Source: Cyathus striatus
Lineage: Eukaryota; Basidiomycota; Agaricomycetes; Agaricales; Nidulariaceae
Direction: 5' to 3'
Assembly: GCA_025738555.1 (NCBI GenBank)
Contig: JAOVFP010000008.1
Location: 4,030,001 to 4,094,000, forward strand
DNA: 64,000 nt
The notes beneath the pieces are model-generated. The model made no database searches. It saw only the letters and a list, made by a program, of their open reading frames with translations, and was not told the origin of the DNA. A program made the translations under genes and the position numbers. Position 1 is the first letter of the stretch, and each line of letters opens with the position of its first letter. Below, in pieces: positions 23,022 through 62,849 of the stretch.

Positions 23022-24561
23022 ACTTTACAGTCCCCCACATGTTTACATGGACTCCATGTGGACTCCTTGTAAATTTTCAGGAGCCTATGTGGAGTGATGA
23101 GTTATTGACATTGAAAGATAGGCAGATTTTACATGGACTCCATGTGGACTCCACATGAAATCACTAAATTCCACATGGAGTCCACAGAGTTTAGGAGGAC
23201 TCCACATAAATTTTTCATATAACATCCTGGTACACTCCATATAAACTTCATGTGTAATAACTGTGACAACTGTAACACTATGTAACTTATAGTATCACAG
23301 TGTCATATTCATCACACCTGTCACATATTGTCATGGTGTCACAGTCACTATAGTTGCCACAGTATAGCAATTGTCACACTTATTACACAGTGTTGTCAAG
23401 TGTGACACTGTGCATGAAGTGTGACACTGTGTGTCAAGTGTGACACTGTGTGTCAAGTGTGACACTGTGTGTCAAGTGTGACACTGTGTGTCAAGTGTGA
23501 CACTGTGTGTCAAGTGTGACACTGTGTGTCAAGTGTGACACTGTGTGTCAAGTGTGACACTGTGTGTCAAGTGTGACACTGTGTGTCAAGTGTGACACTG
23601 TGTGTCAAGTGTGACACTGTGTGTCAAGTGTGACACTGTGTGTCAAGTGTGACACTGTGTGTCAAGTGTGACACTGTGTGTCAAGTGTGACACTGTGTGT
23701 CAAGTGTGACACTGTGTGTCAAGTGTGACACTGTGTGTCAAGTGTGACACTGTGTGTCAAGTGTGACACTGTGTGTCAAGTGTGACACTGTGTGTCAAGT
23801 GTGACACTGTGTGTCAAGTGTGACACTGTGTGTCAAGTGTGACACTGTGTGTCAAGTGTGACACTGTGTGTCAAGTGTGACACTGTGTGTCAAGTGTGAT
23901 ACTGTGTGTTGAGTGTGACACTGTGTGTCAAGTATGATACTGTGTGTTGAGTGTGACACTGTGTGTCAAGTGTGATACTGTGTGTTGAGTGTGACACTAT
24001 GTGTTGAGTGTGACATTATGCATCAAGTGTGACACCATGTATTGAGTGTGAGTGTGTTGAGTGTGACACTGGTGACACTGTGTGTCAAGCATGACACTGT
24101 GCATCAAGTGTGACAACTATAACACCATAACAACTGCAATAGTAACATTGTCACAAAGGTGGGACAATGACAGACAAAATTAAATGTGCTAAGATAACTG
24201 TGACAACTGTGACACTGTGTGACAAATGAGATAATTTATGAATATATTACACCTGTAATTAGCAGTAACAACTGTCACATAAATATAAACATAGCAAAAC
24301 AAAGCAATGTAACAGCTAATATCAATCCATACATGTAGTGTTATGTGAAATCTATATAATATCTACATAGACTCCACATAAATTCTACATGGAGGATAAT
24401 GTGGACTACATGTGGAATTTACATGAAGATAAGATGGACTCCACATGGAGTATATATGGAAATTATGGACTCAATGTAGACTTTATGTGGACTCCACTTA
24501 AAAAAAGAAGAGGTTATGTGGAGTCCACATAAACTGGTGGGGGAGTGTAAATTACTGAGAA
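23022..24561. mobile_element. fold-back type element containing a 19 bp satellite
   Basis: ACTTTACAGTCCCCCACATG at the left resembles the inverted right end AATTTACACTCCCCCACCAG. Both are followed inward by CATGTGGACTCC repeats. The centre is the GTGTGACAC satellite. Non-coding. Confidence 0.5.
23396..24110. repeat. 19 bp satellite (CAAGTGTGACACTGTGTGT)
   Basis: About 26 consecutive near-identical 19 bp units from roughly 23.41 to 23.90 kb, then diverged units to about 24.11 kb. There are no spacers of unique sequence, so it is not a CRISPR array. Homogeneity in the centre and decay at the edges is the usual pattern of unequal exchange. Confidence 0.95.
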
Positions 24562-25463: not shown

Positions 25464-25804
25464 TGTGAGATGTGCAACCAGGACAGTGACCTGCAGAACT
25501 GAGAGAGACAATAGAGTCTGAAGTCCAATGTACAGTGAGCAAGTGTTAGATTGAAGTAGTATGTGTACAGCTTACCTGAAGTCCAATGTACAGTGAGCAA
25601 GTGGGGATTGCCACTGTAGGACCTCAGGATTATATACTACTAGCTTATCTACCAAAGTCCGAGGGTCTAAGGGTCTAAGGGTCCAAGGGTCCAACCAAGG
25701 TCTAAGGGTCCAACCAAGGTCCCAACCCAGGTCCAGTACCTAAGTTTACCTAAGTCTACCTAAGGTTCATTAGTCATCAGAGAAGTGTCAGATCACTTCT
25801 AACA
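25464..25804 (-). repeat. 3' LTR of Copia family A element
   Basis: 341 bp with terminal TGTT/AACA inverted ends. Includes tandem GGTCCAAGG/GGTCTAAGG words and a duplicated GAAGTCCAATGTACAGTGAG motif. Confidence 0.92.
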
Positions 25805-25900
25805 CCCCCCCATGATCTGAACAGTCTCTAAGTATGTAGTTAAGTAAAGGAAGTAAAGGAAGTAAAGTAAAAGAAAGTGTAAGAAAGTAAATGAATGAAT

Positions 25901-28900
25901 CTAAGGTAAAAGTCCCATGTTCTCTCTACAGAATTCAACCTTTGGAATGGTAAGTGGCTTGGTGAGAATGTCGGCTATTTGCTTTTCAGTTGGAACATGA
26001 TGCAAGCTGATAGAACCTTTTTCAACAGTTTCTCTAAGCCAGAAATAACAAAGATCAAGTTGCTTCATGCGCCCATGGTGTTCTGGATTCTTGGTCACAG
26101 AGATGGCAGACTGGCTGTCAATGTGAAGAGGACTAGAAGTGGGAATGGGGAAGCCAAATTCCTTCATGATATTCTGCATCCAAAGTATCTCTTTGCCAGC
26201 TTCAACAGCAGCAATGTACTCTGCTTCAGTTGTGGATAAAGTTACTATAGTCTGTAACTTGCTAGACCAGCCAATGGCACCTCCACCAATCAGAGTTACA
26301 TAACCACCAGTAGAATGACCTGTGTCTTTGCAATCACCATGGGAAGCATCACAATATGTGAGGAAGAGTTCATCTCCTTTGGCAGCACTGTAGGTCAACT
26401 TGTAGTCAAGAGTTCCCTTCAAGTATCTGAAGAGATGTTTGACAGCTAACCAGTGTTGCATGCCAGGGTTGGAGTTGAATCGACCTAAGTACCCAACAGC
26501 AAAAGCAATGTCTGGTCTTGTAGTGATAGCAAGATATTGTAGAGATCCTACAGCACTTAGATAAGGGATGGAGGCCATCTCAGAACGTTCCTCAGCTGTC
26601 TGAGGACCCATAGATTTGGTCAGGATGAGACCATGATTCATAGGAGTTCCACAAGGTTTGCAATCACTCATGCCATATCTCTCAAGCATATCCAGCGCAT
26701 ACTGGCGCTGTGAGAGAGTAATAGAGCGATTGGGACGATCCCTGTCTATCTTAACACCCAGAAGGAAAGAAGTAGGGCCCAAATCTCGAAGTTTGAAGTG
26801 GGCAGAAAGCTGCTTGACTGTATCATCAGCAGCAGAAGGAGAAGTTGATGCAATGGTAATGTCATCAATGTAAACAGGCATGATGATCTTAGTATCACCC
26901 TTTGTGTAAATATAGACAGAGTGGTCTGAATGAGTTCTGGTGAAGCCCATAGTGGTTAGAACATCCTGAAGCTTCTTTCTCCATTGTCTAGCAGCTTGCT
27001 TAAGTCCATAAAGTGATTTCTTAAGTCTGCATACATGATTGGGACCACCTTGATGGAATCCTTCTGGTTGGAGCATGTATATCTCCTCCTCCAATTCACC
27101 ATATGTAAAGGCAGATGAGATGTCAACAGATCGCATAGTCATGTCTTTGATAGCAGACAGAGCAGCTACAAGCCTGAGAGAGGCAGGACGAAATGTTGGT
27201 GCAAATATCTCTGTGTAATCATATCCAGGACGTTGTGAGTACCCCTTTGCAACAACTCTAGACTTGTATCGCTCAACAGCACCAGTAGGAGTTGGCTTGA
27301 TCTTGAATACCCATCTAGAGCCTATAGCCTTCTTTCCTGGAGGCAACTCCACAATATCCCAAGTTCCATTTCGCATCAATGACATTATTTCATCATTGCA
27401 AGCTTCCTGCCATGGTTGTGCATCAGGGGCTTTCATGGCAAGCTTGTAGTTCTTGGGATCAACTCCTGTTGATGCAGCTCCAGCAAATTGAACCTCCAGA
27501 TACCCCCCCAGATCATCTTCACTGCTATTATCATCTAATGCATCAGGCTCCTGAATATCCTCATCTGGGTCATCAGGTAGAGGAGCAGGTGATGATGGTA
27601 CTCTTACTTTCCACCACTCACCAGGAGGCCTTACATCCCTTCTGGGACGCCTCTGAGCCAGTGGAGGAGTAGCAGGCAGAGCAGGAGGAGCAGGAGGTGG
27701 TGGTGAAGGGGTGGGAGTTGAGGTTGGTGTGGCAGTAGGAGATGATATTGGAGTTGTAGGTGGACTAGTTGGAGAGCTAGAATGATTTGGAGGTGATATG
27801 GAAACATCAGGAAAGGGAATGGATGAGTCTGTAGATTCATAGACAGCAGGCTCTGGAGATGAAATAATGTAAGGTGGAATTGGAGATGTTGGCTTGGATA
27901 GACCAGGAAAGAGCCTTTCATCAAATTCAGCTCTCTCTGAGATAACAGTCTTCTTGGTGGTTGGATTGTAGAATTTCCAAGCCTTGTACCCAGCTGGGTA
28001 ACCAATGAAGACACATTTCTGCATATGTGGCTGAAGGGACTTTCTCTGCTCTTTGTGCACAAAGACATAAGCAGTACACCCCCAAACTCGCAGATTGCTA
28101 AGATTAGGTTTCTGGCCATGCCATGCCTCATAGGGTGTCTTGTCAGGCAGAGAAGAAGTGGGAAGACGATTCCACACATAAACCATAGAAGATAGGCATT
28201 CACCCCAAAATGTTGGAGGGAGATGAGACTCATTGAGCATAGCTGTAACATCATCAGCCATAGTGCGATTTGCACGCTCTGCAACTCCATTTTGCTGAGG
28301 CCTGGCAGGAGCAGTATGTCTCCTTACAATTCCACATCTATCTGTGAACTTGATGAATGCATTAGACATGTATTCACCTCCCTTGTCATCCTGTAAAGCT
28401 TTAATCTTTCTCCCAAGTTGGTTCTCAACCAATGACTTGTAACTCCTGAAAGCATCAAATGCACCACTCTTCTTCTTCAAGAAGGCAACACAACGATATC
28501 TGGTGTAATCATCAATGAATGTGATCCAGTATCTATAGCCAGATGGAGTCTGAGTAGGCAAAGGGCCATGGAGGTCAGAATGAATGAGCTCTAAGGGGGC
28601 AGAAGTGCGAGATTCAGATGAAGGGAATGGATTAGAATGCATCTTGCCAGCTAAGCAAGGTTCACAAATAGGGTCAGGCTTCTCCTTGGACTTGATGACA
28701 ATCCCTGTAGCCATATCTTCAGATATAAGTTTCTGAATGTCTGCATAATTATGGTGTGCAAGACGACGATGCCATAGCTGTAAATCCATGGGGCAAGTTG
28801 AAGAAATGTTGGCTACTTCAGAAACAGCAGAAAGGGCTTCTGTCTCTCCATCCAAGTATGCATTATTGTTGGCAGTGATGGAAGCAGAGAATATAAGACT

Positions 28901-29797
28901 TCCATTCTTGCTGAAATCAACATACTGTGATCCAGCAGTCATAATGATGCCCTTGCAACAAGTTAAGTAGAGACAGGAGAGTAAATTGTTTCTGAGCTGG
29001 GGTACATGCAGGACTCTGGTGAATTCTATAGATCTGGATACCTTTCCTCTAATCACTGGGTGGAAGACCACAGTGCCCACTCCTTGGGAATAAATGATTT
29101 TCCCATCAGCTAACTTGATTGGAACCTTCTTGGGTGCATAATTGCGAACCCAATGGCGATGGGGTGTCATATGACAAGATGCCCCTGTATCTGTGTTCCA
29201 ATCAAAGTCTGCATCAAGTTGGAGTGGGTAGGAAGGATCTGAGGGATCCAGAGAATGAGTACTTGCATTTCCAGCAAATTCAGTAGCATCTCCATTGAAT
29301 TCTGAATCAAATTTGACATCAGCAGAGGCAGTAGTAACTTCTGAAGTGGGGGATTGTGCTCTGGAAGCAGTGGAAGAGAGAGAAGGCTGTGGAGAACCAG
29401 TGGAAGATGGCAGACTAGATGAAGATATGCCAGGAGAGGTTCTTTTAAATGAAGTGGAACCTGGAATGGGAGACCTAGTGGTAGCCTGCTTATGAGCCTG
29501 TGATCTTGCTCTTTTGAATCTGTAGCAGTTGGATAGAGAGTGACCTACTCGAGTGCAGAATTCACAAGTAATAGGCATGGTGTCACCAATGTCTGGTTGT
29601 GAGGAGAAGAAGCAGGTGGTTGATCTAGGATAACTAGAAAGACCAAAGGAATGTGGTTGGGAAGTGCACTGTTGGTAAAATCCCAGACAGCACACTGAAG
29701 GAGTGTGGATGGGTGGGAAGAAGGAAGGTGATAAGTTGTAGTGGATATCCCAGAACAACAGTAGTCCAAAGATGCAAAGTAGAGGTTGATCTGACAA
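25901..29797 (-). CDS. Copia pol polyprotein (zinc knuckle-PR-IN-RT-RNase H)
   Basis: Uninterrupted 1298-codon frame. Approximate residues: nucleocapsid knuckle CEFCTRVGHSLSNC (78-91, just after MPIT at 74, the likelier start); protease DTGA (203-206); pre-integrase zinc HLAH/CEPC-type finger (HRRLAHHN...CEPCLAG); integrase core with HSDLHG (about 406), DDKGGEY and NGVAERANRTM; reverse transcriptase with YIDDIT (about 974); RNase H with YCDASHGD (about 1146) and STTEAEYIA (about 1186). The enzymes would copy RNA to DNA and integrate it. The capsid (UBN2-type gag) domain found in other copies here (50.6-51.1, 52.4-53.0 and 61.2-61.4 kb) is absent, so packaging would need gag supplied in trans. 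Confidence 0.93.
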   Translation of the reverse strand: MSDQPLLCIFGLLLFWDIHYNLSPSFFPPIHTPSVCCLGFYQQCTSQPHSFGLSSYPRSTTCFFSSQPDIGDTMPITCEFCTRVGHSLSNCYRFKRARSQAHKQATTRSPIPGSTSFKRTSPGISSSSLPSSTGSPQPSLSSTASRAQSPTSEVTTASADVKFDSEFNGDATEFAGNASTHSLDPSDPSYPLQLDADFDWNTDTGASCHMTPHRHWVRNYAPKKVPIKLADGKIIYSQGVGTVVFHPVIRGKVSRSIEFTRVLHVPQLRNNLLSCLYLTCCKGIIMTAGSQYVDFSKNGSLIFSASITANNNAYLDGETEALSAVSEVANISSTCPMDLQLWHRRLAHHNYADIQKLISEDMATGIVIKSKEKPDPICEPCLAGKMHSNPFPSSESRTSAPLELIHSDLHGPLPTQTPSGYRYWITFIDDYTRYRCVAFLKKKSGAFDAFRSYKSLVENQLGRKIKALQDDKGGEYMSNAFIKFTDRCGIVRRHTAPARPQQNGVAERANRTMADDVTAMLNESHLPPTFWGECLSSMVYVWNRLPTSSLPDKTPYEAWHGQKPNLSNLRVWGCTAYVFVHKEQRKSLQPHMQKCVFIGYPAGYKAWKFYNPTTKKTVISERAEFDERLFPGLSKPTSPIPPYIISSPEPAVYESTDSSIPFPDVSISPPNHSSSPTSPPTTPISSPTATPTSTPTPSPPPPAPPALPATPPLAQRRPRRDVRPPGEWWKVRVPSSPAPLPDDPDEDIQEPDALDDNSSEDDLGGYLEVQFAGAASTGVDPKNYKLAMKAPDAQPWQEACNDEIMSLMRNGTWDIVELPPGKKAIGSRWVFKIKPTPTGAVERYKSRVVAKGYSQRPGYDYTEIFAPTFRPASLRLVAALSAIKDMTMRSVDISSAFTYGELEEEIYMLQPEGFHQGGPNHVCRLKKSLYGLKQAARQWRKKLQDVLTTMGFTRTHSDHSVYIYTKGDTKIIMPVYIDDITIASTSPSAADDTVKQLSAHFKLRDLGPTSFLLGVKIDRDRPNRSITLSQRQYALDMLERYGMSDCKPCGTPMNHGLILTKSMGPQTAEERSEMASIPYLSAVGSLQYLAITTRPDIAFAVGYLGRFNSNPGMQHWLAVKHLFRYLKGTLDYKLTYSAAKGDELFLTYCDASHGDCKDTGHSTGGYVTLIGGGAIGWSSKLQTIVTLSTTEAEYIAAVEAGKEILWMQNIMKEFGFPIPTSSPLHIDSQSAISVTKNPEHHGRMKQLDLCYFWLRETVEKGSISLHHVPTEKQIADILTKPLTIPKVEFCRENMGLLP

Positions 29798-29814
29798 GCA
29801 AGCAAGCAGTTAAA

Positions 29815-29831
29815 GCTCGGGGCCCATAACC
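29815..29831 (-). other. primer-binding site (half-tRNA-iMet)
   Basis: GGTTATGGGCCCCGAGC on the minus strand directly follows the 5' LTR. It is complementary to the anticodon stem-loop of initiator tRNA-Met (the CCCAUAACC region), not to a tRNA 3' end. Priming by a cleaved iMet half-molecule is established for Drosophila copia and Ty5. The same site occurs at about 43.93, 62.38 and 62.84 kb. Confidence 0.75.
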
Positions 29832-30172
29832 TGTGAGATGTGCAACCAGGACAGTGACCTGCAGGACTGAGAGAGACAATAGAGTCTGAAGTCCAATGTA
29901 CAGTGAGCAAGTGGTAGATTGAAGTAGTATGTGTACAGCTTACCTGAAGTCCAATGTACAGTGAGCAAGTGGGGATTGCCACTGTAGGACCTCAGGATTA
30001 TATACTACTAGCTTATCTACCAAAGTCCGAGGGTCTAAGGGTCCAAGGGTCCAAGGGTCCAACCAAGGTCTAAGGGTCCAACCAAGGTCCCAACCCAGGT
30101 CCAGTACCTAAGTTTACCTAAGTCTACCTAAGGTTCATTAGTCACCAGAGAAGTGTCAGATCACTTCTAACA
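29832..30172 (-). repeat. 5' LTR of Copia family A element
   Basis: 341 bp, nearly identical to 25464-25804. Confidence 0.92.
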
Positions 30173-30682: not shown

Positions 30683-30921
30683 TGTTGCATGATGATGTAT
30701 TAGTCATGTGACAGGTAGAGTCCCTGAGTATTCCATACATGCCTACCCAGTAATACACAGAGGCTCTTGGCAGGAATAACACACTTGGTCCTTGGGTATA
30801 TATAATACAACCCAACTTTCACTTGAACAAGACCATATAGCTCAGTTGGTTAGAGCACTCTGAAACTATCAGATAGGTCCCAGGTTCAAACCCTGGTGTG
30901 GTCACTTTGCTACATCTAATA
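30683..30921 (+). mobile_element. solo LTR of the tRNA-bearing TRIM family (C)
   Basis: 239 bp, TGTTGCATGATG...TACATCTAATA, flanked by AGGTC (30678-30682 and 30922-30926). Same length and structure as the LTRs of the complete element at 62144-62729. Confidence 0.9.
30831..30904 (+). tRNA. tRNA-like sequence inside family C LTR
   Basis: 74 nt cloverleaf: acceptor GACCATA/TGTGGTC (7 pairs), D-arm GCTC/GAGC, T-arm CCAGG/CCTGG with TTCAAAC loop, discriminator A. A box TAGCTCAGTTGG and B box GGTTCAAACCC are present. The anticodon loop reads AAACTAT, lacking the universal U33, with one stem mismatch, so it is tRNA-like and probably not a decoding tRNA. Repeated identically in other family C LTRs. 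Confidence 0.6.
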
Positions 30922-36981: not shown

Positions 36982-36998
36982 TATTAGATGTAGCAAAG

Positions 36999-37072
36999 TG
37001 ACCACACCAGGGTTTGAACCTGGGACCTATCTGATAGTTTCAGAGTGCTCTAACCAACTGAGCTATATGGTC
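36999..37072 (-). tRNA. tRNA-like sequence inside family C LTR
   Basis: Reverse-strand copy of the 74 nt cloverleaf, with both internal promoter boxes intact. Confidence 0.6.
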
Positions 37073-37167
37073 TTGTTCAAGTGAAAGTTGGGTTGTATTA
37101 TATATACCCAAGGACCAAGTGTGTTATTCCTGCCAAGAGCCTTTGTGTATTACTGGGTAGGCATATA

Positions 37168-37489
37168 TGTTAGAAGTGATCTGACACTTCTCTGCTGACT
37201 AATGAACCTTAGGTAGACTTAGGTAAACTTAGGTACTGGACCTGGGTTGGGACCTTGGTTGGACCCTTGGACCCTTAGACCCTTAGACCCTCGGACTTTG
37301 GTAGATAAGCTAGTAGTATATAATCCTGAGGTCCTACAGTGCCAATCCCCACTTGCTCACTGTACATTGGACTTCAGGTAAGCTGTACACATACTACTTC
37401 AATCTAATACTTGCTCACTGTACATTGGACTTCAGACTCTATTGTCTCTCTCAGTCCTGCAGGTCACTGTCCTGGTTGCACTTCTCACA
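37168..37489 (+). mobile_element. solo LTR, Copia family A (nested)
   Basis: 322 bp, TSD ATATA (37163-37167 and 37490-37494), inside the family C LTR. Confidence 0.88.
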
Positions 37490-38164
37490 ATATATGGAAT
37501 ACTCAGGGACTCTACCTGTCACATGACTAATACATCATCATGCAACATTTCCAACATGTCACATATATCACACTTTTCCAACATTTTCCAACATGTCACA
37601 CTTTTCCCTTGTCACATTGATCACCAATAATGTATTGACAACTTGCTTATTCAACAAACAACTATTACTGATAGTCTAATGAGAGTCCTATCAATCTAGT
37701 CTCAGATTACTATTGAGATCTGAGTGAGAGAGTTTTCAGTTTTGTAAAAATTTATCATCTAACTCTCACCTGACTCTCACCTAACTCTCATCTGACTGTC
37801 ATTTCAGGCTAAAAATCTCAATCTACTCTCACTTGACTCTCAATCTACTCTCAGAGAGTCTCAGCTAACTATCAACTGACTCTCTGATAGTCAGTTGAAA
37901 CATGTGGCTAAGTGTATTAACCTTGCTAGTAGTATATAAGCACAAGTCTGTAGGACTGTAATTTTTTCATCTGACCAAAACTCAAGCAAACTTATATAGC
38001 ATTTACAAAGGATATTTACAGCTCAGATTCAATATATTAGCACATATGAGTATGATGTTCACTTATATTATGCTATACTACTGAATAAATGTGTTATAAT
38101 TTCAATATTTTCACATTGCATAAACCTCCATATGATGTGGCAGGCATGGCACAAGTGTTCTGGC

Positions 38165-48892: not shown

Positions 48893-49110
48893 TGTTAAAA
48901 CTATTGAACTGGACAGGGATTGAACCTGTGACCACCTGTACTCATGACTAGGCGCTCTTCCAACTGAGCTACCAGCCCTTGCCTATACACAAGCAAGAAC
49001 AGGTACTTAACCAGTTGAGTGGGCTACCAGGCTTGTCACCATGGCAGGAGTGCTCCAATATTATACACCCCCATAATCCAGTCAAGGCTGTCAACCTTGC
49101 CAATCCAACA
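48893..49110 (-). mobile_element. solo LTR of a second tRNA-bearing family (D)
   Basis: On the minus strand it runs TGTTGGATTGGC...TAGTTTTAACA, 218 bp, with a perfect 5 bp duplication ATTAG (48888-48892 and 49111-49115) and an empty site at 22.27 kb in the related repeat. It contains a TATA-like GTATAATATT and a tRNA-like sequence near the 3' end. Not similar to family C outside the tRNA portion. Confidence 0.75.
48905..48978 (-). tRNA. tRNA-Met-like sequence inside family D LTR
   Basis: 74 nt. Acceptor GGGCTGG/CCAGTTC (two G-U), D-arm GCTC/GAGC, T-arm ACAGG/CCTGT with loop TTCAATC, A box TAGCTCAGTTGG, B box GGTTCAATCCC. The anticodon loop TCATGAG offers CAT (Met), but the anticodon stem is poorly paired, so it is probably a tRNA-like relic. 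Confidence 0.5.
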
Positions 49111-50311: not shown

Positions 50312-50614
50312 TGTTAGATATTCAGGGTTGCACAGCTTCTTTGACAGCTGTCACTTGTCACCTGTCATACTTGACAGTTCTGTGATTGACAGATATGTGA
50401 TTGACAGATTGACAGCTGTCAGTTACCTTAGTTACATGGACCTTGGTTGGGACTTTGGTAGACACCCTCAGTATATAAACACTCTGTATCTTGGTAGTAG
50501 TTAACAAGTTTCCTCCCCATTTGTGTCTGTGTTAGTGTCTGTGTCTGAGTCTTTGCTCCACTATTATTCTTTATTCTCTCCATCTACCCTCCTTTATTCT
50601 TGTTACTTCTGACA
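50312..50614 (+). mobile_element. family B LTR abutting a gag fragment
   Basis: TGTTAGATATTC...TTCTGACA. Left flank GATAC and right flank GCTTC do not match; the right side continues into a minus-strand gag remnant. Confidence 0.85.
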
Positions 50615-51345
50615 GCTTCCTCTGAGCAGAAGCAGCAAGTCCAGAAATAGGAGTGAGTGGAGCAGAAGATGAATCCACATCTGCAGGAGTGGCAGACTGG
50701 AGCAGAACCTTCAACTCCTCCAAAGTAAGTTCCTCCTTCCTAGCAAGAATGGCAATCCTGATGGAATTGAAGGAGTCATCCAAATTCATGAGAATGACAT
50801 CAACAACCTCTGTGTCATCTTCAATCTTGCAGCCTAGAGCAGTGAGCTTCTTGGAAGCTGCAACAACAGACTGAATGTAGAAGTCAATAGGCTTGGAAAC
50901 ATCATGGTGGACACTGTAAAACTCCTTCCTATACTGCATTCTAGTCCCAATAGTAGACTTCTCAAAATGGCCCTTGAGCTCAGCCCAAGCTGCCCTTCCA
51001 GACACCAGATCCTCTACAAGGTACTGGTAGTCATCATGAATCTTGGCATAGATGTAAGCAACCAGCTGCCTGTCAACAGCTTTCCACTGTTTCAATTCTT
51101 TGGGATCTTCAGGAGGAGACAGAGAAGACTCCTGTAATGCCTGCACCTAAAAAGAACATGTTCATCTTTTTGACCCAGATGTGCCAGTCAGTTGTTAGAA
51201 GTGAGGATGGGAATGTTGGCCATAAGTCCAGAAGCATTGTGGAGAGACATGGTGAATGATGAATGAAGGGATAGAGTTGATGATGAAGGAATGAATGATG
51301 AATTGTAATGGGACTACCAGAACAATCAGAGGACTGTAATTGAAA
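50615..51345 (-). pseudogene. Copia gag (UBN2-type capsid) fragment
   Basis: Minus strand encodes WKAVDRQLVAYIYAKIHDDY, GHFEKSTIGTRMQYRKEFYS and DDTEVVDVILMNLDDSFNSI, the UBN2/DUF4219-type capsid of Copia gag. A frame shift follows the N-terminal stretch near VKKMNMFF (51.15-51.2 kb). The 3' end is lost at the LTR. Confidence 0.85.
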
Positions 51346-51349
51346 AAGG

Positions 51350-51749
51350 TGTTGCATGATGATGTTGTGAGATGTACAACCAGGGCAGTGACCTGCAGGA
51401 CTGAGAGAGACACAATAGGGTCTGAAGTCCAATGTATAGTGAGCAAGTGGGGATTGTCACTGTAGGACCTCAGGATTATATACTACTAGCTTATCTACCA
51501 AAGTCCGAGGGTCTAAGGGTCTAAGGGTCCAAGGGTCCAACCAAGGTCTAAGGGTCCAACCAAGGTCCCAACCCAGGTCCAGTACCTAAGTTTACCTAAG
51601 TCTACCTAAGGTTCATTAGTCAGCAGAGAAGTGTCAGATCACTTCTAACAGATGTATTAGTCATGTGACAGGTAGAGTCCCTGAGTATTCCATACATGCC
51701 TACCCAGTAATACACAGAGGCTCTTGGCAGGAATAACACACTTGGTCCT
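51350..51749 (+). mobile_element. truncated TRIM family C LTR, split by a family A LTR
   Basis: TGTTGCATGATGATGT at 51350, resuming at 51656 to CTTGGTCCT. It lacks the tRNA-like 3' part. Family A LTR at 51366-51650 has TSD GATGT (51361-51365 and 51651-51655). Confidence 0.8.
51366..51650 (-). mobile_element. solo LTR, Copia family A (nested)
   Basis: TGTGAGATGTAC...CACTTCTAACA, TSD GATGT. Confidence 0.88.
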
Positions 51750-52110: not shown

Positions 52111-52349
52111 TGTTGCATGATGATGTATTAGTCATGTGACAGGTAGAGTCCCTGAGTATTCCATATATGCCTACCCAGTAATACACAGAGGCTCTTGGCA
52201 GGAATAACACACTTGGTCCTTGGGTATATATAATACAACCCAACTTTCACTTGAACAAGACCATATAGCTCAGTTGGTTAGAGCACTCTGAAACTATCAG
52301 ATAGGTCCCAGGTTCAAACCCTGGTGTGGTCACTTTGCTACATCTAATA
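52111..52349 (+). mobile_element. solo LTR of TRIM family C (nested)
   Basis: 239 bp, TSD CTTCT (52106-52110 and 52350-52354). Confidence 0.9.
52259..52332 (+). tRNA. tRNA-like sequence inside family C LTR
   Basis: Identical fold to the copy at 30831, including the AAACTAT loop. Confidence 0.6.
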
Positions 52350-53030
52350 CTTCTGACACTTCCACACCTATGGCAAGCCCCTTCATCAGTGGGATTGCAC
52401 CATCTAAAACCCTTGGAGTCCACCAGAGAAGGACTCCCACCTAATCCTGATGGTCCTGCATGACTCCCACCTAATTCTGATGATCCTGCATGTCCTTGAA
52501 ACCTAACACCTTGATGACCATGACCAGAACCAGAGTGATCATGATCTGAACCTGTAAAACCACCAAATGCATGTCTTCTCTGAGTAGAAGCAGCAAGACC
52601 AGAGATGGAAGGGATGGAAGTGGAAATGGAGTCCACATCTGCAGAAGTGGCAGACTTCAGCAACACCTTCAAATCCTCCAAGGTGAGTTCATTCCTAGCA
52701 AGAATGGCAGTCCTAATGGAGTTAAAGGACTCATCCAGATTCATGAGAATAATATCAACAACTTCAGTATTGTTGTCAACAGTGCAGCCTAATGCAGAAA
52801 GCTTCTTGGAGGCTGCAATAACAGACTGGATGTAGAAGTCAATGGGCTTGGCAGTGTCATGGTGAACACTGTAAAACTCCTTCCTGTACTGCATCCTGGT
52901 ACCAACAGTTGACTTCTCAAAATGGCCTTTGAGTGTGTCCCAAGCTGCCTTTCCAGATGTGAGATCCTCAATAAGATACTGGTAGTCATCATGGACTTTG
53001 CCAGTATGTTGCACTCTCCCACAGTTATCA

Positions 53031-53891: not shown

Positions 53892-56283
53892 TTAGACATC
53901 AATATCCAATCCATAATCTGCTATTCCTTCATCTTCTTCTCTGTCATATTCATCTGCTGCTTCTTCTCTGTCATATATATCTTCTGCTTCCTCTTCTGCT
54001 TCCTCTTCCTCTTCTACATCAGAATTATCAGAATTATCTTCTATAATATCTTCATCATCTTGAGTACTATTGTTTCTTTCAAGTTGCTTCTTAATAACCT
54101 TTTGTGTATGAATAAATAGAAGTGCATGTATGGTCCAGTTGAAGTTAATAACTGTCATTCTGTTAAGCATGTTCTGAAACCCTCCAAGCCATGCATTTAA
54201 TTGCTCACAAGCCTGTATGGAAATATTAAATAAAGTTATACATATACTAATATGAAATTCTTCTTACCTGAGTATTGAAGGCTCTTTTATAATGTGGTCT
54301 TCCATGAATATCATTTTCCACTACAACCAAGTTGGGTGCAGATCCATTTAAAGGTGCTGGGTTGCACCATTTACGACATGTATAATCAGTTGTTCTATGG
54401 TTAACATAATGATATGAATCAACAATAAATCTAGTTGTTAGACTCCAAATTCTCCATGCACCATTTAACACAGCATTTTTTAGCACTACACATGCTTTGT
54501 CAATACAGACATAGCTTGGACGAGATTCAAGAGTTGGATAGACATGATCTAAAAATCTCATAATATTTCCAGGTCCTTCAGATTTTGTAAACTTGGTCCA
54601 TGCAATAACTGCTCCACATGGTGCACATAATGTCTCAACACAGTAAAATCGAGGAGCAGTAAAGTAATGATTTCGCTCCTCATGTGGTGCAGGAGCATCA
54701 TCATGAGGCATCACTTGCCGGTTTATACGAGGAAGCCAATCTACTCGTTCCTCTTCACTTCTTCGAATAAGTCTTCTTATTCCTAAAAGTGTTTGCCGAC
54801 CAAATCTTACAAGATGGTTGCGCCATCGTGACTGATGATTAATACATGTTTTAGAGTTTTGTTCTTTGGGGTTGTTACATGATTTTATATGACATATGTG
54901 ACCACGCATAGCTTGATGATACATACAGAATACACCTGTTCTTTCATTTTCTAAACTATTATCACAGTTCTCATATGCACAATGTCTTGGACCCATAATT
55001 ATCCCATCCATAACAACCATGTTTACTATTGGTTTCTCAGCTTGATTTGATTGACTTGTGTTTGGTACATTATTGGATGATTCATTGGATGATTCACTAG
55101 ACAGTTCATTGTCAATATCCATATCATTAGTTGTACTATTGGTTTGTTGAATTTGTTGCCGAGAAAGTGCTCTAGCTTCAATTTCCTCTCTCATTGATTG
55201 TTCAGCATCTTCACCCTGTAAAATTGGAACTGTTTGATTTTCATCAATTCCAGCTACTGCAGCTGGAGTATCATCAGTTATTCTGTCTGGAGTACTTTTA
55301 TAGTCATGTGTACATTCACTACATGAATGATCTTTAGCACATGCAATAATTCCTTCCTGTCCAAGTATTTCAAATGCTTTTCTAGTTAACTCTTGTATGT
55401 CACGCTCATCAGATGTTATAACAAGTGTTTTATCATTATATGTTGCTACCTGTCTTACACTTTCAGAAATAAATGCCTGCCAAGTTTGTCTACGAGACAG
55501 TTTAAATGCTGATTCTCTAAAGCATTCATTCCAAAATTCTGCAAATGCAGCTGTAGATGCATGAAAATGATAAATTCCTTGAAGAACTGCATTTGTATAG
55601 CATCTGTCTGCCCAGACTTGCTGTCCAAGCTTTACATATTTTGCAGAGTTCTTTAATCCTTTAATCCGTGTGCCATTTGTATGTTTTACACTTTTATGAT
55701 CTGCATAGTAAAATGCATTACAATGCTTGCATTTCCCTTTCAGAACATAGGCACTACTGTAAGGATGCATTCCTTTTATAAGTGTTACACATGAAACATC
55801 TCGTTTGCGGACTTCTTGGTAAAGTGGTGCCCCATCACATGATGGTGTTGAGCAAGTATAACGGCTTGGACAAATAGTAAAGACTGGTTCAATTTCTATA
55901 GTTCTTACAGCATTTAAAGAATGACCTTTTATAATTGGATCTAGTGCTAAAATTGCTGCAAATGAATCAAGTTTTGAGCCCAATGAATTTATTTTCTGTA
56001 TATTGGTTAAATTCTCAGCAGCAGCAGATTCATCTTCAGTAAATAGATAATTAATCTTATCATTTATATCTCTTTGTAGAACTCTAATAAGAGCATTAAT
56101 CCAACTTGTTGTAGGTTTCTTATATGCTTGTTTTTGACATCCATGGAGATTCAATAGATCTGTGTTATTTATTAATGTGAATAACAGTTTGAGTACCACT
56201 GCTAGTGTAATGTCTGTATGGAAGTTGCTGGTGATAAATTCGGAAAAATCTGAAAATTTTATTTCTGGAAATGGATCTTGCAC
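53892..56283 (-). CDS. CxC5/CxC6 cysteine-cluster protein, putative KDZ-type transposase
   Basis: Two exons, 54268-56283 and 53892-54212 (intron 55 bp, GTAAGA...ACAG), about 778 residues from a GTG-bounded frame. The true start probably lies upstream, since the in-frame codons to about 56375 encode WLFTFYALISCIPKAWASSP. After a conserved N-domain, a Cys cluster (CPSRYTCSTPSC...CKHC) matches CxC5. HCAYENCDNS...CMYHQ...CHIKSCNNP...CINHQ matches CxC6. These clusters are known partners of KDZ transposases. The C-terminal core has IDKACVV, FIVDSYHYVNH, CRKWCNPAP and, across the intron, ACEQLNAWLGG, which I read as a candidate D-D-E triad. The tail is acidic. The reading is open throughout. Confidence 0.75.
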
Positions 56284-62138: not shown

Positions 62139-62291
62139 GAATGTGTTGCATGATGATGTATTAGTCATGTGACAGGTAGAGTCCCTGAGTATTCCATACA
62201 TGCCTACCCAGTAATACACAGAGGCTCTTGGCAGGAATAACACACTTGGTCCTTGGGTATATATAATACAACCCAACTTTCACTTGAACAA

Positions 62292-62365
62292 GACCATATA
62301 GCTCAGTTGGTTAGAGCACTCTGAAACTATTAGATAGGTCCCAGGTTCAAACCCTGGTGTGGTCA
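62292..62365 (+). tRNA. tRNA-like sequence in TRIM 5' LTR
   Basis: 74 nt cloverleaf with A and B boxes, as at 30831, except C-to-T in the anticodon stem (CTATTAG). Confidence 0.6.
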
Positions 62366-62382
62366 CTTTGCTACATCTAATA

Positions 62383-62399
62383 GGTTATGGGCCCCGAGC
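62383..62399 (+). other. primer-binding site of the TRIM
   Basis: GGTTATGGGCCCCGAGC immediately after the 5' LTR, identical to the site of the Copia family A element. Confidence 0.8.
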
Positions 62400-62638
62400 A
62401 CTACACTGTGTGTGGGAATCTGCTTATTCAGCAAAGTGTCTCACGGTCACATGATCCAAAAGTCACAAGACCTGCCACATCAGGGGAGAGTGTTGCATGA
62501 TGATGTATTAGTCATGTGACAGGTAGAGTCCCTGAGTATTCCATACATGCCTACTCAGTAATACACAGAGACTCTTGGCAGGAATAACACACTTGGTCCT
62601 TGGGTATATATAATACAACCCAACTTTCACTTGAACAA

Positions 62639-62712
62639 GACCATATAGCTCAGTTGGTTAGAGCACTCTGAAACTATCAGATAGGTCCCAGGTTCAAACC
62701 CTGGTGTGGTCA
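62639..62712 (+). tRNA. tRNA-like sequence in TRIM 3' LTR
   Basis: 74 nt, identical in fold to the copies at 30831 and 52259. Confidence 0.6.
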
Positions 62713-62729
62713 CTTTGCTACATCTAATA

Positions 62730-62849
62730 GAATGATGAATTGTAATGGGACTACCAGAACAATCAGAGGACTGTAATTGAAAAAGGTTGATTGGTGAATA
62801 AGCAGTGGTAATATGTTGTGGCAAAGATTAAAAGGCGGGGCCCATAACC
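62730..62849 (-). other. leader and primer site of Copia family B element
   Basis: Non-coding leader shared with 51.29-51.35 kb (GGACTACCAGAACAATCAGA). It ends at the primer site complement CGGGGCCCATAACC, directly against the 5' LTR at 62850. Confidence 0.75.

Follow-up and report, generated by a model that had tools for sequence, protein, structure and literature searches.

In the genome of Cyathus striatus, copies of a miniature retroelement of the TRIM type carry the 5' LTR of another retroelement family, Copia A, in place of their own, and the exchange sits at a 17-bp PBS that is identical in the two families. Those hybrids that are flanked by matching TSDs can be read as a physical record of a TRIM and one Copia family having been reverse transcribed together. 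This record of the reverse-transcription partner is the new aspect of our work, whereas the kind of TRIM concerned, Helenus, has been known since 2024. We consider it fairly probable that one joint explanation covers the observations: a Helenus-type TRIM whose LTRs hold a tRNA-derived Pol III promoter and whose RNA would be packaged with Copia A RNA, primed at the common PBS and mobilised by Copia-type enzymes. Our confidence in this explanation is lowered by the fact that no gag was recognised in Copia A.

A TRIM family whose LTRs both contain a tRNA-like sequence

The element was found in the window, i. e. the whole stretch of 64,000 nucleotides analysed here, which is a part of contig C8 of the genome (107.45 Mb, 24 contigs). 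The original prediction of a complete miniature retroelement at 62144-62729 was borne out: within 586 bp, two LTRs of 239 bp that differ from each other at 3 of 239 positions enclose an interior of 108 bp with a PBS and a PPT, and the TSD flanks the whole (Table 1). Both LTRs end in TA (CTAATA, at 62382 and 62729) and not in CA, the ending of the copy on C20.

Table 1. Features of the window that bear on the TRIM, its relatives and Copia A.
Feature	Positions	Strand	Remarks
Copia A	25464..30172	-	LTRs 29832-30172 and 25464-25804, PBS at 29831
Solo LTR, family T	30683..30921	+	TSD AGGTC
One LTR, family T, interrupted by a solo LTR of Copia A	36982..37547	-	pieces 36982-37169 and 37490-37547
Solo LTR, family U, 218 bp	48893..49110	-	TSD CTAAT; tRNA-like sequence 48905-48978
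ORF with copia-type Gag (PF14223)	50571..51146	-	relatives adjoin LTRs of a third family, B
LTR fragment, family T	51651..51749	+	LTR positions 12-110, without the tRNA part
Solo LTR, family T	52111..52349	+	TSD CTTCT; nested within another LTR
TSD GAATG	62139..62143 and 62730..62734		5' and 3' flanks of the TRIM
5' LTR, 239 bp	62144..62382	+	TGTTGC...CTAATA
TATA element TATATATAAT	62258..62267	+	-34 to -25 relative to the start of the tRNA-like sequence
tRNA-like sequence in 5' LTR, 74 nt	62292..62365	+	boxes A and B intact
TRIM interior, 108 bp	62383..62490	+	12 genomic copies
PBS GGTTATGGGCCCCGAGC	62383..62399	+	same as Copia A PBS
PPT GGGGAGAG	62483..62490	+	abuts 3' LTR
3' LTR, 239 bp	62491..62729	+	
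tRNA-like sequence in 3' LTR, 74 nt	62639..62712	+	Rfam, ARAGORN, predicted fold

The tRNA-like sequence of 74 nt with boxes A and B that had been proposed for each LTR was recovered by both Rfam and ARAGORN: the Rfam tRNA family scores 49.8 bits (E 1.1e-7) in the 5' LTR and 50.8 bits (E 5.9e-8) in the 3' LTR, ARAGORN calls both sequences Ser-ACT, and the box motifs are TAGCT...TTGG (A) and GGTTC (B). For the sequence in the 3' LTR a full cloverleaf is predicted (z -2.0, with 8 of 200 shuffles equally good); the one in the 5' LTR carries one base change in the anticodon stem, and its MFE structure is not a cloverleaf. Decoding is unlikely since the predicted anticodon-stem loop has only 5 nt and, by the position rule, presumably lacks U33. 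We infer that, rather than being a working tRNA, the tRNA-like part serves as an internal Pol III promoter that the element has captured. As to its origin, tRNA-Ile-AAT was the best of 56 sequences compared (55 of the 61 host tRNA matches, many of them duplicates, and the U tRNA-like sequence of the window), but with 56 of 74 positions the match is too weak to name a source. A selective constraint on the tRNA part was not seen inside the family: it varies as much as U3 (0.0068 vs 0.0069, estimated on 52 of 53 full LTRs, one LTR of less than 95% identity being left out).

Copies of this family, T, are spread across the genome, so that the claim of a mobile family holds and a chance duplication does not explain the element. 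In the genome search with the LTR, the best 40 of 67 candidates were scored, and those listed are full-length and 99-100% identical; the search with the interior gave 12 candidates, all of which were scored and are the 12 interior copies. It had also been asked whether the tRNA part might be absent from most members. When the LTR part without it served as the query, the tRNA region was present in all 40 scored matches (the best 40 of 68 candidates). The examined loci, partly retrieved with the tRNA-like part as the query, yielded 61 LTR pieces: 53 are full-length, and 57 contain the whole tRNA-like region, which is identical in 42 of the 57. Exact 5-bp TSDs were present at 28 of the 37 full LTRs that were not recognised beside an interior, a set that includes the C20 hybrid. 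The two LTRs of each of the five complete TRIMs show 0 to 3 differences over 239 sites, and the TSDs match in four of these TRIMs, the copy on C9 being the exception. The family looks young. Within the window, the copies proposed at 30683, 36982 and 52111 exist as two solo LTRs with TSD and one split LTR, but the truncated copy placed at 51350 is a Copia A LTR with its flank, and the real fragment lies at 51651-51749. Inverted partial LTRs were seen in the copies L060, L061, L012 (C16:2888656-2889226) and L134 (C8:151 kb); they might be a product of self-integration.

A second family of tRNA-bearing TRIMs, U, is represented in the window by a solo LTR. A genome search with the U LTR, in which the best 40 of 145 candidates were scored, was followed by inspection of six U loci: five have the order LTR-interior-LTR, and the sixth is an array comprising three LTRs and two interiors (C9:611150-612250). 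The U interior has 87 bp and the same 17-bp PBS as T, and the TSDs match at all six loci. Since clear similarity of the T and U LTRs is confined to boxes A and B, the sequences argue for separate tRNA captures. In a rescan of 13 loci, the Rfam cut-off was reached by 10 of 12 tRNA-like parts of T and by 9 of 10 of U; both parts of the C9 TRIM copy were below it.

Members of family T are concentrated near Copia A: for 46 of the 51 listed insertion sites, a Copia A interior match is no more than 100 kb away, which applies to 3.3% of the genome, and for U the corresponding figure is 15 of 33 listed sites. The TRIM and Copia A form dense clusters, one per contig, with a TRIM span of about 10-65 kb on C1, C3, C4, C5, C6, C8, C13, C16, C23 and C24, and the TRIM copies known from the C8 cluster fall within the window. 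The clusters are possibly centromeres, and the proximity to Copia A may reflect a common safe region. Two further features of the window deserve mention in their own right. A 19-bp tandem repeat forms a long array at 23242-24092 and beyond, and the gene at 54247-56283 (minus strand) encodes cysteine clusters (CxC5 and CxC6) that are associated with KDZ transposases; its relatives in Agaricomycetes (Pleurotus, Cyathus, Piloderma, Laccaria and others) are 35-49% identical, and further ones up to about 53%.

Hybrid copies and the probable part played by Copia A

The PBS sequences of Copia A and the TRIM are identical over 17 bp, and the two elements diverge directly after it. On their 5' sides, five of the 12 interiors belong to complete TRIMs, five follow a Copia A LTR, one is rearranged, with pieces of the tRNA-bearing LTR on both sides (C16:2888751), and one, an older copy on C13 from which the PBS is missing, follows an LTR of family B. 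On the 3' side, all 12 interiors run into the tRNA-bearing LTR, and a swapped 3' LTR was found in none of them. The Copia A LTR is spanned from the first to the last base in four hybrids (C1, C4:3666679, C5:5048209 and C6) and truncated in the fifth (C16:2882491); in the C4 hybrid it is interrupted by a B-type LTR, and the hybrids on C5 and C6 carry variants of the Copia A LTR (94% and 88% identical, respectively). The reciprocal arrangement was encountered once: a genome-wide pattern of the tRNA-bearing LTR plus PBS, which misses the TRIM at C4:3694503 due to one changed base, occurs at six sites, and the one on C20 runs into a Copia A interior. Of this reciprocal element, the 5' junction is defined; the locus is nested, and the far flank does not match. 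All six junctions, i. e. those of the five hybrids and the reciprocal one, are located at the common 17-bp PBS. At the nine U interior starts found, there was no hybrid 5' junction. The hybrids represent 5 of the 51 insertion sites of family T, to which the C20 junction is to be added. Because the two LTRs of a hybrid are unlike, solo LTRs would not form from it, and hybrids are therefore expected to be enriched among the interior-bearing copies.

In the retroviral scheme of reverse transcription, plus-strand strong-stop DNA is the intermediate that holds U3-R-U5-PBS. A transfer of this DNA onto the minus-strand PBS of the other element would yield just what is seen, a swapped 5' LTR with the breakpoint at the PBS. 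Among the explanations considered, plus-strand strong-stop transfer between co-packaged molecules would best account for the six junctions.

The proteins needed for mobilisation may not all be provided by Copia A. The window copy, whose flanks GCAGG and GATGG are not a matching TSD, contains an ORF (25901-29797, minus strand) with integrase, RVT_2 and gag-pre-integrase domains. Retrotran_gag_2 was absent from this copy in a domain search with E up to 0.01, and tblastn of the window Gag against Copia A gave no match. Copia A as a family seems to have no capsid gene after the PBS, since the ORF begins at 29797, only 34 nt after the start of the PBS at 29831, and since 23 of the 45 matches listed span the first 600 interior bases as a whole, which leaves no room for gag. 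Outside Copia A, Gag ORFs were noted in the window at 50571-51146 and 52334-53014 (both on the minus strand), and three B-type loci outside it, C16:2865 kb, C16:2888 kb and C1:4621 kb, have Gag-like sequence next to the LTR. Family B has only about 14 bp of the PBS in common. We regard Copia A as a partner that is supported by these sequence data, but not as a complete or autonomous helper; another, gag-bearing family may supply Gag, and gag and pol are perhaps split between elements. To go further and propose a three-part system, in which a Pol III TRIM, capsid-less Copia A as the source of pol and family B as the source of the gag particles share a near-identical primer site and strong-stop jumps generate the hybrids, is a doubtful step for the time being.

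How much the hybrids tell about the partner depends on how they arose. It is improbable that they result from DNA-level recombination or from nested insertions of neighbours, in which case they would be uninformative. The copies do lie in dense nests with Copia A, rearranged copies exist (C16), and the flanks of the full-span hybrid on C5 are not a matching TSD. The three other full-span hybrids, however, have matching 5-bp TSDs, each a different one (GTTAA on C1, CCCCT on C6 and CATCC on C4), and so must have been hybrids when they were integrated; moreover, recombination at the level of DNA is difficult to reconcile with Copia A junctions that sit at the PBS and with 3' LTRs that are never swapped. 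If the exchange took place during reverse transcription, Copia A might still be a fellow passenger, the RNAs of both the TRIM and Copia A being packaged, and perhaps copied, by another gag-bearing Copia element. The lack of a recognised capsid domain, the ORF that begins so close to the PBS, the listed matches without room for gag and the Gag-like sequence adjoining B-type LTRs at three other places are all in keeping with this idea, and it is a possibility to be taken seriously even though we do not think it likely: integrase and RT domains are encoded in an open frame of Copia A, the foreign 5' LTRs at six interiors are five times from Copia A and only once B-type, and the overlap of family B with the PBS is short. 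We thus prefer Copia A as the actual partner in reverse transcription.

Transcription and the proposed life cycle

The TATA element of the LTR was found about where it had been predicted, but Pol II is not the only polymerase it would suit, since the host tRNA genes also have TATA-like sequences near -30: in 30 host tRNA loci, several of which are near-identical copies, 14 starts of [TC]ATA[TA] fall into the interval -40..-22, against an expectation of 3.6. TATATA and TATAWA occur in this interval at none of the 30 loci (expected 0.4 and 0.6), and judged by the absence of these strong forms, the TATA of the element is stronger than that of the host tRNA genes. A T5 run follows within 40 nt downstream in 28 of the 30 host loci (about 6% in the control). 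The window TRIM has no TTTT in its sense strand, and T4 was present in 2 of 56 family pieces checked. The absence of TTTT was rejected as a sign of selection because 56% of shuffles are also devoid of it. A TATA at -30 without T4 is what a read-through promoter would show, and it is compatible with Pol II too. ARAGORN, incidentally, predicts introns in 21 of 25 host tRNA loci.

It is rather unlikely, in our view, that the element is an ordinary Pol II TRIM, transcribed from the TATA of its LTR, with the tRNA-like sequence as a chance passenger in R. The position of the TATA fits Pol II too, the Copia A LTR has a similar one (TATATAAT), strong TATATA forms are not a feature of the host tRNA genes, and no constraint on the tRNA part was seen within family T. 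A mere passenger is hard to reconcile with the intact A and B boxes that T and U, with their otherwise unlike LTRs, both carry in a single window, with the lack of a TATA at -30 in family U, and with the recurrent tRNA-like parts described by Kojima (2024, PMC10886601). Even less probable is that the tRNA-like fold acts not as a promoter but as a tRNA mimic by which the RNA would enter Copia particles as their tRNA primers do. The acceptor stem is paired at 7 of 7 positions (wobble pairs included) and the T stem at 5 of 5 in T as well as in U, despite differing sequences, and T is predicted to form a cloverleaf; yet such pairing is expected anyway if the two descend from different tRNAs, the T fold is only moderately better than its shuffles, and the predicted U fold is not a cloverleaf.

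We therefore retain a Pol III promoter in the preferred life cycle. Transcription by Pol III would begin near the 5' end of the tRNA-like sequence in the 5' LTR, read through the element, as the window copy without a sense TTTT would permit, and end in or past the 3' LTR, and the tRNA-like part would form much of R. Particles would then take up the TRIM RNA along with that of resident Copia A; priming of the TRIM RNA at the common PBS and its reverse transcription would follow, and integration by Copia-type enzymes would create the 5-bp TSDs. Pol could come from Copia A, and Gag perhaps from a different gag-bearing family. The complement of the PBS contains CCCATAACC, which we take to be tRNA-iMet-like; with the one pattern used, a host tRNA-iMet gene matching the PBS was not found in the genome.

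Relation to known systems

With the hybrids, the question of the helper is narrowed to a testable pair within one genome, and a search for hybrids may be a route to the partners of those TRIMs for which no autonomous element with similar LTRs exists. No precedent for a TRIM joined at its PBS to the LTR of a different family was found in the open-access literature, which is a weak negative. Du et al. in 2010 and Yin et al. in 2014 reportedly dealt with LTR swapping and Cassandra recombination, and their work may contain precedents.

The assumption that there is no established fungal counterpart with a tRNA had to be given up: Helenus TRIMs are described from basidiomycete fungi (Pucciniales and Agaricomycetes), animals and one plant (Kojima 2024, PMC10886601). 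Set against the published fungal Helenus by description, the TRIM at 62144-62729 is a new Helenus family in a new host. It agrees with the fungal elements of that account in its length of less than 1000 bp, a short non-coding interior, a tRNA-like sequence with boxes A (TRGCY, YGG) and B (GGTTC) in each LTR, 5-bp TSDs, a PBS and a PPT at the ends of the interior, and the presence of several families per genome. Two further traits of the fungal elements may also be shared: a PBS of the tRNA anticodon-loop type, of which iMet is the commonest, and mobilisation by Copia, the hybrids and the common PBS linking the TRIM to Copia A. In the same source, helpers are inferred from PBS and interior similarity, at best across species, unlike the partner proposed here, which is supported by hybrid copies; Pol III transcription is stated to be without experimental validation, and the word TATA is absent from the main text, whereas our element has an upstream TATA. 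The tRNA gene counts of rusts can, according to this report, be inflated by LTRs, and the same is possible in other TRIM-bearing genomes.

Cassandra resembles the element in having a sequence derived from a Pol III gene in each LTR of a TRIM, but there it is 5S rRNA, in plants, and here a tRNA; no 5S rRNA-derived sequence was present in the LTR, the Rfam matches in the window being to the tRNA family only. Tandem LTR-interior arrays are known from Cassandra (PMC7215508), and family U has one. With tRNA-derived SINEs the element has in common the tRNA-derived Pol III promoter, the shortness and the lack of coding capacity, but the LTRs, PBS, PPT and constant 5-bp TSD, as opposed to the target-primed insertion of SINEs with its variable TSDs, rule out this identity. 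Finally, Onsen also produces hybrid cDNAs from molecules that are copied together (PMC5668417). As described there, members of one family are the exchange partners, and most exchanges within the LTRs coincide with the first template switch (R), whereas in C. striatus a TRIM exchanges with a different family, and at the PBS.
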